NCBI RefSeq assembly: GCF_000568815.1
Contig: NZ_CP007201.1
Location: forward strand, 310,001 to 374,000
DNA: 64,000 bases
Source of the DNA: Sulfurospirillum multivorans DSM 12446
GTDB taxonomy: Bacteria; Campylobacterota; Campylobacteria; Campylobacterales; Sulfurospirillaceae
Direction: 5' to 3'
How positions within the stretch are numbered: position 1 is the first letter of the stretch; the number at the start of each line of letters is the position of its first letter. The translations under genes were made by a program, and so were the position numbers. Below are positions 12,272 to 17,932 of this stretch, in pieces. The notes under the pieces were generated by a model. That model did not search any database and was not told the DNA's origin. It saw only the letters and a program-made list of their open reading frames with translations.

Positions 12272-12619
12272 ATGACCAAAGAAAAACTCATCTCCGACAC
12301 GCAAACCTTGCACCGTTTTATTCAACTGCATTGCGACAAAAAGCATCACGATGTTCCCAAAAAGAAGGGCGCTTTGCAGGTGAGTTTTAAAGAAGAGTCC
12401 TTGTGCGATCTTCCCTATCATATCTGCGAAGAGTGCGAGACGCTTTTTCTCTACGCGTATGGCAAGCTTAAAAAGTGTCCGCATGAAAATAAACCGAGTT
12501 GTCGCAAATGCCCTGATCCATGTTATGAAAAATCGATGTGGAAAAAGATGGCAAGCGTAATGATGTTCAGCGGTATGCAGTTTGGACTCACTAAAATACG
12601 CAAAATTTTTTCCAAATAA
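12272..12619 (+). CDS. YgbA-like 'nitrous oxide-stimulated promoter' family protein
   Basis: A 115-residue cysteine-rich cytoplasmic protein with the family pattern CEECETLFLYAYGKLKKCP followed by CRKCPDPCY. In enterobacteria the YgbA family is induced by nitric oxide and linked to nitrosative stress; its reaction is not established. The paired cysteines suggest a metal or Fe-S site. Its stop codon shares one base with the start of the radical SAM gene, so the two form an operon. No operator was identified with confidence. Confidence 0.8.
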   Translation: MTKEKLISDTQTLHRFIQLHCDKKHHDVPKKKGALQVSFKEESLCDLPYHICEECETLFLYAYGKLKKCPHENKPSCRKCPDPCYEKSMWKKMASVMMFSGMQFGLTKIRKIFSK

Positions 12620-14307
12620 TGCTCCCCTACCTCAGTCACAAAGCCTTTATGCGCTCCCATTATGGCGAAGCACTCTTTAGCATTCCTGTCAATTTAGAGT
12701 TTGGCTGTCCTAATCGCGAACGTGATGGCAGTGGAGGCTGCTCTTTTTGCCCCGAACACGGAGCGCGTGCGGCGCAGATTGCGGATGCAAAAAGCGTGGA
12801 AGAGCAGATAGAAAAAGCAATTTCTTTTGCTAGAAGACGATACAAAGCCTCTTCGTTCGCACTCTACATTCAAGCTTACACAGGAACTTTTGCCTCGTTG
12901 GTCATGCAAAAAGAGGCGTATGAAAAACTGCTGTCGCTCTACCCTTTTCGCGCGTTACATGTAGGCACACGTCCTGATTGTCTCAGTGAATCGACGCTGG
13001 AGTATTTGCGTGAATTAAACCAAAAAATAGACGTCGTGGTCGAACTGGGCGTGCAAACTTTGCACGATGCAAGTTTAGCGCACATGAACCGAGGGCACGA
13101 TGCCGCTTGTTCGCTGAACGCAATTAAGCGTTTACATGTAAAGGGTTTGAAGGTCTATGCGCATCTCATTATTGGCTTGCCTAATGAGAATTTAGAGATG
13201 TGGAAACAGAGTCTGAAAGGCTTGGTGGACGCTGGCATTGATGGCATTAAATTTCACAATTTGCATATCATCGAAAATACCGATCTGGCGCGCGAATTTT
13301 CTCAAAACCCTTTTGCGCTTTTAAGCGAGTACGAATACGCCGAAGCGCTCATCGAGCTGTTGCGTTTGACGCCTTCACACATTCCTATTTTGCGCCTTGC
13401 CACCGACACGCCAACACATGAACTCATCGCTCCCAAATGGCACATGGCAAAAGGACAATTTGGCGAATACATTGCCCAAACGATGCGCTATCGTGGCATC
13501 AAACAAGGCGATTTGGTCGAATCTAAGCGTGAAGAAAGTTATGAAATACCACAAAAAATCGATCTAAAAGATGGAAGTTCGACTTTATGGAGTGAAACGT
13601 ACCATGATTATTACCATCCCAAAGCAGGTGCGTACATACAAGCCGAAACGCTTTTTATTGAAAAATCAGACCTCAAAGCACGCCTTGAAAAAGGCGATGT
13701 GAACCTTTTAGAGATCGGTTTTGGGATGGGTTACACCACATTTAAAGCGTTAGAATTAGCCCAAACCTTAGCCAAAAATCGTTTACATGTAAACACCATC
13801 GACCAAGATCGCATGCTCTTGCAAACGGCATCTGCCATCGTTCCCAATGCTTTACATGTAAAGATGTTGAACGCACTTTTTACATGTAAAACCTACGAAG
13901 ATGATTTTACAAGGATTGACTTCCACACTATCGAAGCGCGCTATGGTGTCACGCTTTTGAGCGAGACATTTGATGTCATCTTTCTAGACCCATTTATCGA
14001 GAGTAATAACGCTTCGCTCGTCACCTTAGAATTTTTCAAAAACCTGCGAAAATTGCTTAAACCTGATGGCATTTTGGTCGCCTCAACCACTTTACATGTA
14101 AGCCAAATCGGACTCAATCTCGCAGGCTTTGACGTGCAAGTCGCCAATGATGAAAACAGCGACATCAAAGGTGTCGTCGCCACACATTCTACGGCTTCAA
14201 AATCGTTACATGTAAAAGAGCCGTACCGCGATCCTTATGGTGTTTGGAGTGATAAAATGATAGAAAGCGAGCATCAAAAAATCTTTACATGTAAAGGCAG
14301 AAGTTAA
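12619..14307 (+). CDS. Radical SAM protein (YhcC/TIGR01212 type) fused to an MnmC-like methyltransferase domain
   Basis: A 562-residue two-domain protein. Residues 1-310 form a radical SAM domain of the YhcC type with cysteines 30, 41 and 44 in a C-x10-C-x2-C arrangement (CPNRERDGSGGCSFC), followed by YIQAYTGTF, GTRPDCL, ELGVQT and HLIIGLPNE. Residues 325-545 look like the MnmC-type methyltransferase (LWSETYHDYYHPKAGAY, SAM-binding LLEIGFGMGYT near 363-373, FDVIFLDPF). The fusion suggests a nucleic-acid-modifying enzyme, but the substrate is unknown. Eight copies or near-copies of the TTTACATGTAAA palindrome sit in this one gene, coding LHVK/N/S or FTCK. The stop codon lies in the left terminal repeat of the next element. 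Confidence 0.85.
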   Translation: MLPYLSHKAFMRSHYGEALFSIPVNLEFGCPNRERDGSGGCSFCPEHGARAAQIADAKSVEEQIEKAISFARRRYKASSFALYIQAYTGTFASLVMQKEAYEKLLSLYPFRALHVGTRPDCLSESTLEYLRELNQKIDVVVELGVQTLHDASLAHMNRGHDAACSLNAIKRLHVKGLKVYAHLIIGLPNENLEMWKQSLKGLVDAGIDGIKFHNLHIIENTDLAREFSQNPFALLSEYEYAEALIELLRLTPSHIPILRLATDTPTHELIAPKWHMAKGQFGEYIAQTMRYRGIKQGDLVESKREESYEIPQKIDLKDGSSTLWSETYHDYYHPKAGAYIQAETLFIEKSDLKARLEKGDVNLLEIGFGMGYTTFKALELAQTLAKNRLHVNTIDQDRMLLQTASAIVPNALHVKMLNALFTCKTYEDDFTRIDFHTIEARYGVTLLSETFDVIFLDPFIESNNASLVTLEFFKNLRKLLKPDGILVASTTLHVSQIGLNLAGFDVQVANDENSDIKGVVATHSTASKSLHVKEPYRDPYGVWSDKMIESEHQKIFTCKGRS

Positions 14308-14325
14308 AAGTTTAGCCCTGACCCC
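14306..14325 (+). repeat. Left terminal inverted repeat
   Basis: AAAAGTTTAGCCCTGACCCC; pairs with 15260-15279 with two mismatches. Its first two bases are part of the TAA stop codon of the upstream gene. Confidence 0.7.
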
Positions 14326-14358
14326 CTATGTACTTTCTTCATCTCAAAACCTTTTTCT

Positions 14359-14832
14359 TTACAGTGTTGGATAAGATAACTTCTCATTATGTGCTTGCGC
14401 ATCATCTTCCCAAATAAGCCGTACGATATGCTTTGGTCTTGTTTGCATATAAACTACAGTCATGAGTTCAACAGACTGATATTTTTCCAAACTCTCCATC
14501 GGAAATTTATCAGTCACTTCTGAATCAATGACCACATCGTTTCCTTCTGGAAACTCTATTCTCACGTTCCTTGCAGTTGATGCACCTTTATTCCATATTT
14601 TTAATCGATACTTACTACTACCTAATTTTATAAAAGATGCTCCGAGATCAGCTCTTTTCTCTTTAAGTAAATCCTCACTTTCTTTTTCTAATAAAAGTTT
14701 GTTCAGTTTCTCTTGGCTTTCAAAAAGTGACTTCTGCTTTTTATTGAAGCTGACTGTTTGCCAAGTTGCATAGCTAGACAATAAAAAGGCTAAGCCGGCA
14801 ATTATATCTCCTGTATCAATAGCTACTGGCAT
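14359..14832 (-). CDS. Unknown membrane-anchored protein in the inverted-repeat element
   Basis: A 157-residue protein I do not recognise. It has one N-terminal membrane helix (residues 7-27), then a coiled-coil-like Lys/Glu-rich stretch (28-60) and a beta-rich C-terminal domain with WNKGASTARNVRIEFPEG, reminiscent of small Ig-like domains. The start shares one base with the stop of the zinc-ribbon gene, so both are cotranscribed. Low GC and the terminal repeats suggest it arrived by transfer. No function can be assigned. Confidence 0.6.
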   Translation of the reverse strand: MPVAIDTGDIIAGLAFLLSSYATWQTVSFNKKQKSLFESQEKLNKLLLEKESEDLLKEKRADLGASFIKLGSSKYRLKIWNKGASTARNVRIEFPEGNDVVIDSEVTDKFPMESLEKYQSVELMTVVYMQTRPKHIVRLIWEDDAQAHNEKLSYPTL

Positions 14833-15113
14833 TACTTAAACCTAATATTTTTATTACCAGAAAATGCCTTTTCTAAAGACTTCTGCAGTTCATTGGTTAA
14901 ATCGTTCACAATTTCTTCTTTCGTCTCTGAAATATGCTCATGAATATTTTCACTATTTTCTTGGATTAGTTTGTCTTTATTGAATTCTCTTTTACATGAA
15001 GCACACGTTATTATTTGAATAGTTTCGTCTACTCCTTCATCATACGAAAAATCAGAGCAACCACATGTTGGACACAACAACTTTATACTTCGATTATATT
15101 TTTCAAGATTCAT
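14832..15113 (-). CDS. Unknown zinc-ribbon protein in the inverted-repeat element
   Basis: A 93-residue protein with CPTCGCSDF (residues 14-22) and CASCKREF (37-44), a typical four-cysteine zinc ribbon, followed by a charged helical tail (EHISETKEEIVNDLTNEL). It is the first gene of a two-gene unit. The sequence AATAACATG at its start is preceded by TGGAGGAAT when read on the minus strand, a good ribosome-binding site. The function is unknown; nucleic-acid or protein binding is possible. Confidence 0.6.
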   Translation of the reverse strand: MNLEKYNRSIKLLCPTCGCSDFSYDEGVDETIQIITCASCKREFNKDKLIQENSENIHEHISETKEEIVNDLTNELQKSLEKAFSGNKNIRFK

Positions 15114-15259
15114 GTTATTCCTCCATTTATTAAGAATTAATGGAACTTAATGGTGACAGGCTACTTTTTTATATTCTCATCTCATTTTATATTTTTAACA
15201 TGTAAAAATTTTATCTGACCATTTTGAGACAAATTATTGTAGCAAAATAACAGAAAATA

Positions 15260-15279
15260 GGGGTCAATGCTAAACTTTT
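15260..15279 (-). repeat. Right terminal inverted repeat
   Basis: GGGGTCAATGCTAAACTTTT on the plus strand; the inverse of 14306-14325 with two mismatches. Confidence 0.7.
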
Positions 15280-15337
15280 AACATTTCCCCATTAAACGCC
15301 AATTTTATACGTTAAATTGTAGCCAAATTTCGTCTGC

Positions 15338-15359
15338 AAATCTTTACATGTAAAGATTT
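15338..15359. repeat. 22-bp perfect palindrome around TTTACATGTAAA
   Basis: The recurrent 12-bp palindrome at 15343-15354 is extended on both sides by AAATC/GATTT to a perfect 22-bp inverted repeat. This is the longest version in the window and lies about 290 bases upstream of psrA1; a second 12-bp copy follows at 15449-15460. Confidence 0.75.
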
Positions 15360-15476
15360 TTCACGTATCAAAAAACCAACCATCCTTTTTATTCTATGAA
15401 AAAAAGCTTTATTTGTAACGCTTACGACTTCTTTTTAAACAAAGTATCTTTACATGTAAACGTAAAAACATCAAAA

Positions 15477-15640: not shown

Positions 15641-17932
15641 ATGACTCAAATGCTTAGCCGAAGAGGATTTTTAAAACTCTCTTCTACTGCAGCGGCCGTT
15701 GCAAGTCTCTCTTCGATACCAGGGACTCTTGGGGCGATTGAAGAGAGTAAAAAGCAATACAAAGGTACAACGAAGTTTACACCGAGTATTTGCGAGATGT
15801 GTACGAGTTCGTGTACCATTGAAGCGCGTGTGGAAGAGGGGAAGGGAATGTTTATTCGCGGTAATCCTGCGGATAAAAGCCGAGGTGGCAAAGTCTGCGC
15901 TCGTGGTAGTGCAGGGTTTAATCAACTCTATGATCCACAACGTTTGGTCAAACCGATTATGCGTGTGGGTGAGCGTGGGGAAGGAAAGTGGAAAGAGGTC
16001 AGTTGGGACGAAGCATACACTTTCATTGCCAAAAAACTGGATGAGATCAAGCAAAAACACGGTGCGCATACGGTGGCATTTACCGCACGCAGTGGTTGGA
16101 CGAAAACATGGTTTCACCATTTAGCACAAGCGTATGGCTCTCATAACCTTTTTGGTCATGAAGCGACCTGTCCATTGGCGTATGGAATGGCGGGTAAAGA
16201 TGTATTTGGCGCAGGCGCTAATCGTGATTTTGCGAAAGCAAAATACATCATCAATATGGGTCACAATGTCTTTGAGGGCATCGTTATCTCTTACGCTCGT
16301 CAATACATGGATGCCCTTGCAAATGGTGCAAAACTGGTAACTTTGGAGCCAAGACTCTCTGTCATGGCGGCAAAGTCAACCGAATGGCATGCCATCAAAC
16401 CAGGGCACGATCTTCCGTTTGTTTTAGCGTTTATGCACACACTGATCCATGAAAATCTTTACGATAAAAAGTTTGTTGAAAAATACTGCGAAGGCTTTGA
16501 AGAACTTAAAGCGAGTATTGCGGAGTATACACCTGAAAAAATGGCAACCGAATGTGATATACCAGCCGATACCATCAAACGTTTAGCGCGTGAGTTTGCA
16601 AAAGCGGCTCCAAAAGCGATCTTTGACTTTGGTCACAGAGTTACGTTTACACCACAAGAGTTGGAGCTTCGCCGTGCGATGATGATGATAAATGTTCTTG
16701 TTGGTGCGGTTGAGAGAGATGGTGGTTATTACCTCTCTAAGGGAGCGGATTATTACAACCAATTTATTGGCGAGGGTGATCCAAAAGCATTTAAACTTAA
16801 AAAACCAAAAACACCAGCGTATCCAAAAGTCGAAGTACCACGCATTGACCGTATTGGCGAGAAAGACAGTGAATTTTTCCTTGCAGGCAAAGGTGAGGGT
16901 ATTGTCACATTGATTCCTCATGCGACACTGACAGAACTTCCAGGTGTGGGGTATAAACTTCACGGATGGTTCATTGCACGTAACAATCCTGTTATGACAC
17001 AATCCAATATGGAACATGTCATCAAAGCGATTAAAGCGATGGATTTGGTGGTGGTTGTAGATATTCAAGTCTCTGATACCGCATGGTTTGCTGACATCGT
17101 GCTTCCAGATACGACCTATTTAGAGAGAGATGAAGAGTTTACTGCCAGTGGTAGCAAAAATCCAAGTTACGGGGTCGGTCGCCAAAAAGTGGTTGAGCCT
17201 ATTGGTGAGAGTAGAGCACCATGGCGTATTGCTAAAGAGCTCGCTGAAAAAATGGGACTCAGTGCGTATTTCCCTTACAAAGACATTGAAGATTATCGTT
17301 TGCAACAAGTGGGCGATAACATTGATCTTCTTGCAAAACTTAAAGCGACAGGAAGTGCTAGCTTTGGTGTGCCTTTGATGCTTCAAGAGAAAAAGAGTGT
17401 GGCTGAGTTTGTGAAAAAATACCCAAGTGCTGCGAGCAAAGTGAATGAAGAGGGCACGATGGACTTCCCTCATAAAATCAAACTTTTCAGCCCAAGATTA
17501 GAAGAAGTTTCTAAAAAAGGCGCTCTGAGCTATGAGCCTTATAAATACAAAGAAGCGGATGAACTCTACTTCGTTAATGGTAAATCAGCGGTGCGCTCAA
17601 ACAGTCACAACGGTAACAACGCATGGCTTAACAACCTTTTAGACGATGCGGCGGTGTGGATTCACCCAAAAACTGCTGAACGTCTCGGTATTAAAAATGG
17701 TGACAAGATCGATGTTTATAACAAATACAGCACTCAAAAAGGCAAAGCGCTTGTCACCAAAGGGGTAAGAGAAGATACGATCTTTGCTTACTTCGGATTT
17801 GGTCACATCAGCAAAGAGCTCAAACGAGCTTACGGCAAAGGTGTTAACAGCAATTCGCTTTATTCGCCTTTGGTATCGCCAAATTCAGGTATGAACCTGC
17901 ATGTCGTTGGCGTCAAAGTCAAAAAAGCGTAA
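15641..17932 (+). CDS. psrA: Molybdopterin oxidoreductase catalytic subunit, polysulfide/thiosulfate reductase type (copy 1)
   Basis: A 763-residue periplasmic catalytic subunit. A Tat signal is visible ([10 protein letters not shown], residues 6-15, with a following hydrophobic stretch). Cysteines 51, 54, 58 and 86 form the [4Fe-4S] site. Cys177 in EATCPLAYG is the expected molybdenum ligand. Length matches PsrA/PhsA proteins. It starts a three-gene unit with an Fe-S subunit and a NrfD-type anchor, which together reduce polysulfide or thiosulfate with electrons from the quinone pool. The exact substrate cannot be read from sequence. AAAAGGATGAAAG precedes the ATG. The whole operon lacks the palindrome found in most other long regions. 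Confidence 0.88.

Follow-up and report, generated by a model that had tools for sequence, protein, structure and literature searches.

The present analysis suggests that a strain-specific pair of small genes in Sulfurospirillum multivorans forms an accessory cassette, bounded by inward-facing repeats of a TIRYT-type, single-copy Y1 (HUH) transposase and swapped at fixed junctions, a reading to which we give a probability of about one half. The pair lies in the window, the whole stretch of 64,000 nucleotides that was analysed. At this site and at others, the repeat is where strains change from shared to unshared DNA; that the Y1 enzyme has a role in moving the cargo is what we infer.

The two 23-base inverted repeats enclose 934 bases and two genes, both on the minus strand (Table 1). 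The earlier note had described 20-base terminal inverted repeats matching at 18 of 20 positions; that match was confirmed, and when extended to the full repeat it becomes identity at 21 of 23 positions, the repeat reading GTTAAAAGTTTAGC, then the two mismatched positions, then TGACCCC. Chance origin of these ends was excluded with 60 dinucleotide-preserving shuffles of a 1.2-kb region, in which the best spacing-matched inverted 20-mer reached 16 of 20 or fell under the reporting floor. The left repeat reaches five bases into the 3' end of the upstream gene (AGT TAA, with the stop at 14305-14307), so the left end does sit on the upstream stop codon, as had been noted. The description of an AT-rich, transposase-less unit of two genes, a zinc-ribbon protein and a membrane-anchored one, holds as well: G+C is about 29-36% inside the unit versus about 43-48% in the neighbouring genes, the stop and start of the zinc-ribbon (93 aa) and membrane-protein (157 aa) genes overlap, and there is no transposase gene among the open reading frames between the end repeats.

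Table 1. Features of the two-gene unit and its flanks (positions in the window)
Feature	Coordinates	Strand	Description
Upstream flanking gene	12619..14307	+	Carries radical SAM and methyltransferase domains; the junction lies at its 3' end
Left end repeat	14303..14325	+	A/T-rich half GTTAAAAGTTTAGC (14303-14316) toward the conserved upstream gene
Left end repeat, tail	14317-14325	+	CCTGACCCC, toward the cargo
157-aa cargo gene	14359..14832	-	N-terminal membrane helix into coiled coil, then Ig-like beta domain; phrog_6723
93-aa cargo gene	14832..15113	-	Zinc ribbon (two CxxC) and C-terminal helix; NF047912
Right end repeat	15260..15282	-	Inverted copy; tail ATTGACCCC toward the cargo
Downstream flanking gene	15641..17932	+	Molybdopterin oxidoreductase

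Across the genus, the upstream radical-SAM gene is full-length in 22 of 24 genomes, and what follows it differs. Six genomes (G001, G004, G005, G009, G011, and G017) have an empty site, in which the upstream gene, a short gap, and the molybdopterin gene follow one another with neither repeat nor cargo. The closest relative (G006) has the left repeat and other cargo: the DNA that it has in common with the present genome (G000) runs up to 14319, a position within the left repeat just past its A/T-rich half, and homology restarts at 15301, 19 bp outside the right repeat, the two genomes sharing 340 bp upstream of the molybdopterin gene. In place of the two genes G006 holds 1,063 bases with a different gene (286 aa, no Pfam match), and there the right repeat is missing and the tail of the left one is altered. 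Other small genes stand at this site in G012, G008, and G002, and others again in G010 and G014; among these five, only G012 has a repeat, on the right side. Because relatives carry different genes here or none, the focal junction is a variable site, and its left edge is the repeat in both G000 and G006. The membrane-protein gene is present in 1 of the 24 genomes and absent from the other 23, which rules out conservation of the cargo across the genus and leaves the mobile-unit reading standing.

The end repeats are true members of a dispersed repeat family. The pattern GTTAAAAGTTTAGCNCNGA, allowing up to two mismatches, occurs at 19 sites in the 3.18-Mb genome versus 2 for the reversed control, and the end repeat is present in all 24 Sulfurospirillum genomes searched. 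A search for a Y1 transposase gene with the same ends, as the earlier note had proposed, led to the single Y1_Tnp gene of the genome (genome positions 378510-379268, about 4.5 kb past the window), whose product passes the cut-off for PF01797 (E 7.5e-15) and in which the motifs NHYH and YIENNP were seen by eye in the translation; for the C-terminal helix-turn-helix of TIRYT subclass 2.1, the matches to HTH_Tnp_1 (E 0.011) and HTH_38 (E 0.016) are both below cut-off. This gene is bracketed by the repeat at 378445 (minus) and 379264 (plus), with GGGGTCAG outermost on both sides, and a repeat pair 817-819 bp apart, as around the Y1 gene, occurs in 10 of the 11 genomes with fully listed sites. The tails point outward around the Y1 gene versus inward around the cargo, and the link between repeat and enzyme is established by position only. 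The repeat ends match the published TIRYT motif GGGGWSAS. Neither GTAG nor GTGG stands at a hairpin foot in the repeat sequence, read directly, and the stable hairpin that would be expected was not predicted, the consensus folding at 0 kcal/mol on both strands as single-stranded DNA and one variant at -1.4 kcal/mol (z -0.62). Since GTAG and a stable predicted hairpin are both lacking, the strict REP definition misfits and the TIRYT label fits better. The interpretation in the earlier note is thus partly supported: mobilisation by a RAYT-type Y1 transposase gains from a Y1 gene that shares the repeat, but the repeats are oppositely oriented there and the repeat is not a strict REP; likewise the mobile cassette or accessory module proves strain-specific and repeat-bounded, but cargo moving elsewhere together with both ends was not found.

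Beyond the focal site, the repeats were compared with the places where genomes differ. Gaps of at least 300 bp were counted, a repeat being scored when it lay in a gap or within 60 bp of one; the aligned stretches were chosen for holding repeats (19 of 19 in G000, 15 of 20 in G006, 13 of 14 in G004, and 15 of 17 in G005), and the intergenic null was drawn from the same stretches. Between G000 and G006, 13 of 19 and 9 of 15 repeats were at gaps, versus 0.33 and 0.23 of intergenic positions (p 0.002 each); between G004 and G005, whose DNA is mostly 92-99% alike over the aligned stretches, the counts were 9 of 13 and 10 of 15, versus 0.13 and 0.18 (p 5e-6 and 4e-5). The repeats at the Y1 gene are not at gaps. 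Repeats and accessory genes might have become neighbours by chance, both gathering between genes, so that the focal ends would be two independent single repeats. Many repeats are indeed solitary or in direct pairs and most are intergenic, but all four genomes of the two pairs exceed the intergenic null, and the focal gap starts and stops within 20 bp of the repeats; we consider a chance association improbable.

The repeats also show a preferred polarity, with the A/T-rich half toward conserved DNA and the CCTGACCCC tail toward the variable side. Among repeats within 300 bp of a gap edge, orthologous copies having been merged, 19 have the tail toward the gap and 3 the other half, and in many cases the gap edge lies 0-20 bp from the repeat. 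Tally and merging were done by hand; variable DNA is on the opposite side of the repeat at 605643, 1973399, and 1079024, and the copy at 1224695/1079024, which touches gaps on both sides, was scored against the polarity. Neighbouring repeats within 4.5 kb of each other, counted over the 11 fully listed genomes of the 24 and with a porin site counted thrice (G000, G006, and G008), form 15 inward pairs, 3 outward pairs besides the 10 at the transposase, and 17 pairs in the same direction.

Inward pairs elsewhere enclose one to three small genes, encoding an HNH nuclease, a Sel1 protein, a polysaccharide deacetylase with a TPR protein, a GGDEF protein, GrpB, and proteins without a known family, and one empty inward pair was seen, its repeats 64 bp apart. 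At the gene that we take to be htpG (this name, like those of the FabF, ThiC, GNAT, and pyridoxamine-oxidase-like genes, was given by eye, without a family call), G004 and G005 have inward repeats at the gap edges (3-12 bp) with contents that differ: one holds an HNH nuclease gene, the other a pentapeptide-repeat gene between two copies of an IS110-like element. At a further site (site A), G004 holds a single gene and an inverted repeat in 590 bases, and G005 has one repeat and nothing else. Of three other cargo proteins searched for across the genus, two occur in 2 of 24 genomes each and the third in 1 of 24, and most repeat-bounded cargo is without a transposase.

When 88 repeats were compared, 18 pairs were alike only on the A/T-rich side and 10 only on the tail side, so switching happens both ways. 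In G006 and G011 the GrpB cargo begins right at the repeat, with left neighbours that differ between the two genomes; we had taken this for a repeat and cargo moved to another place, but dropped that reading when the wider region showed the same right neighbour in both, so that the case is a breakpoint at the repeat and not demonstrated transposition. The cargo of G001 has a relative in the present genome (82%, one internal stop) away from any repeat, and among the genomes compared no whole cassette was found to have moved cleanly to another location. Two longer stretches may be recorded beside these cases: a run of small toxin-antitoxin pairs (HepT/nucleotidyltransferase, Phd/ParE, and others) at G000 605008-609751 (L030), partly separated by end repeats and adjoining them at 605-608 kb, and 17.2 kb at G000 247635-264836 that are missing from G006, where the flanks join cleanly.

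The main rival to cassette exchange is that the repeats are passive. Under this account, which we regard as quite possible, repeats that spread long ago at gene ends now serve as short homologies or insertion targets, the Y1 enzyme is uninvolved, and cargo turns over by homologous or illegitimate recombination and through other elements. One such element is present: a presumably IS110-like element, so named by eye from its transposase, adjoins three repeat copies at their foot (G000 1976144; G005 1577065 and 1580821, the latter two in L111), and its targeting of the repeat foot would make the repeats variable places by that alone. Insertion of an IS into REPs is known from Pseudomonas putida (PMC8450116). 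The breakpoints on both sides of the repeat (the 18 and 10 pairs above) and the variability of the focal site even in relatives without a repeat there also fit passive repeats. In contrast, the 19-to-3 polarity and the gap edges 0-20 bp from the repeat exceed what homology alone requires, and the cargo is mostly transposase-free.

In the cassette-exchange reading, the repeat would be the substrate of the Y1 enzyme, and as an HUH enzyme it would nick single-stranded DNA at the tail, beside the A/T-rich half. The opened ends may then be connected to further repeat-bounded segments or traded for them, whether by cut-and-join or by inter-repeat recombination that the nick provokes, and the outcome would be short cassettes of one to three genes swapped at fixed junctions between core genes. 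Several observations count against this model: the repeats at the Y1 gene are reversed relative to those around cargo, which the model leaves unexplained; the empty genome at site A retains one repeat; G006 lacks the right focal repeat and its left tail is altered; G002, G008, G010, and G014 have other genes at the focal position and no repeat there; some variable DNA lies beside the other half of a repeat; the consensus repeat is predicted not to fold; a whole cassette moved elsewhere was not found; and same-direction pairs are as common as inward ones. A broader version, that a single-copy, vertically inherited Y1 enzyme of TIRYT type runs cassette exchange throughout the genus, with the repeats as polarised docking ends at which small operons are swapped at fixed junctions, is offered tentatively. 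In this version, and as doubtfully, cargo would include toxin-antitoxin pairs and the pair known from SXT elements, and the outcome would resemble that of integrons, reached with an HUH enzyme and without a cassette-borne recombinase.

The cargo itself is widespread outside the genus. The 157-aa protein is 82-83% identical to proteins of SXT/R391-type elements and matches its PHROG profile with E 5.5e-41; in a wider draw from the phylum it was found in 3 of 397 genomes including this one, the other two proteins being 83% and 28% identical, and elsewhere it is common, with 85 plasmid records and 34 loci in named genomes. Of these 34 loci, 30 have the zinc-ribbon gene immediately upstream by script, and L226 has it by eye; the loci without it are L216, L223, and L231. 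From this distribution we conclude that the pair is an accessory operon, widely mobile and acquired from outside. It might even have a recombination route of its own and have entered between two of the repeats by coincidence. Indeed none of the 34 loci in other taxa has these end repeats around the pair, which is carried on ICEs and plasmids and, by the look of the neighbourhood, in cassette-like arrays; it encodes no recombinase, however, and the same repeats bound other cargo in the same way, so that we hold an independent route to be very improbable. The Proteus plasmid pR997 has the pair flanked by a McrBC-type restriction operon on one side and mobH on the other, and at L198 and L200 the neighbours have the same sizes as those around the pair on pR997. 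At L208, L209, and L117 the same two genes stand within runs of small same-strand genes that resemble cassette arrays.

The model of the 157-aa protein (mean pLDDT 88.5) has a long N-terminal helix, comprising membrane helix and coiled coil, and then an Ig-like domain; no PDB entry matched it at E 0.001 or better, the TRAP complex and adaptin ears coming nearest with their Ig-like folds; four viral structure matches have low TM-scores. The Pfam family CARDB was touched by 4 of 19 members of this protein family (best E 0.012, too weak for a firm claim). The 93-aa protein scores 67.8 bits for NF047912 (ECs_2282-type zinc-binding) versus a cut-off of 37, and its model is of moderate quality (mean pLDDT 78.5). 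A profile search of the sequences of solved structures gave chance-level matches only. Phage origin by direct match was considered and set aside, neither protein having matched the phage collection at E 1e-5. Among PADLOC models the zinc ribbon weakly matches the candidate PDC-M14A (11 of 17 family members, best E 2.9e-7), and none was matched by the 157-aa protein. The role of the cargo is, at a guess, probably protective or envelope-linked, a protective one being suggested by the neighbours of the pair and the weak PDC-M14A match.

To our knowledge, RAYT and TIRYT enzymes are single-copy in many bacteria and have no agreed purpose. If the repeats are docking ends for accessory genes, such an enzyme would have a use visible to selection, and one directly testable in a culturable genus. 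Mobile insertion cassettes consist of transposase-less passengers between the ends of IS elements. They are like the present unit in having passenger genes between ends shared with an autonomous element, with the transposase elsewhere and none inside, and unlike it in that the ends here are of the Y1 family, not DDE, and are oriented opposite to the transposase unit; as to movement as a unit, exchange at fixed sites was seen, and relocation elsewhere was not found. Integrons likewise exchange small and varied accessory genes, as gene cassettes, at fixed sites, a resemblance by analogy only, with no evidence of membership.

Closest to the present case is the TIR-associated Y1 transposase (TIRYT, or TIRtron; PMC3733652), subclass 2.1 in PMC6006769. 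In the parts of these two accounts available to us, TIRYTs comprise a Y1/HUH enzyme between inverted repeats with GGGGWSAS, and the repeats recur in some genomes singly, paired, or grouped. The likeness extends to the Y1/HUH gene, the flanking GGGGWSAS inverted repeats, and the further copies across the genome; the difference is that inward repeats here bracket other genes, whereas the published accounts, in those parts, are without cargo, polarity, or exchange between strains. Like REPs and REPINs with their RAYTs, the Sulfurospirillum repeat is short, dispersed, tied to a single-copy Y1 enzyme, and found in inverted pairs. Published REPs, in the portions of that literature at hand, have GTAG and a hairpin (PMC3116915, PMC3686654, PMC3390384); here there are 19 copies versus hundreds, no GTAG, and no stable predicted hairpin. 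According to the same portions (PMC3116915, PMC3686654, PMC3390384), REPs in Pseudomonas are markers of old core DNA and are lacking where DNA was acquired laterally, whereas the Sulfurospirillum repeats are at variable sites; docking ends for accessory genes would reverse the Pseudomonas-derived rule that repeats of this kind are a sign of stable core DNA. No report of cargo bounded by TIRYT repeats was found in the limited literature collection searched, and in the parts of it available TIRYT genes and repeat families are already described, whereas repeat-bounded cargo, polarity, and fixed-site exchange were not found described.

A second inverted pair around the unit (14277-14296 and 15342-15361, identical at 20 of 20 positions) is unrelated to the end repeats and is built of copies of the palindrome TTTACATGTAAA (e.g., 14284-14295 and 15343-15354). 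This is a highly iterated palindrome, with 20 copies in the window versus 0 in 100 shuffles, and TTACATGTAA occurs 34 times in the window versus 0.04 in shuffles; no publication with the TTTACATGTAAA string was found within a limited literature collection. The palindrome is often intragenic, encoding LHVK, and a full copy is absent between the two end repeats. Within 60 bp of the end repeats in the G000 and G004 stretches, with about 1.6 expected per side, TTACATGTAA occurs on the tail side once in G000 and not at all in G004, and on the A/T-rich side 6 times in G000 and 5 times in G004.
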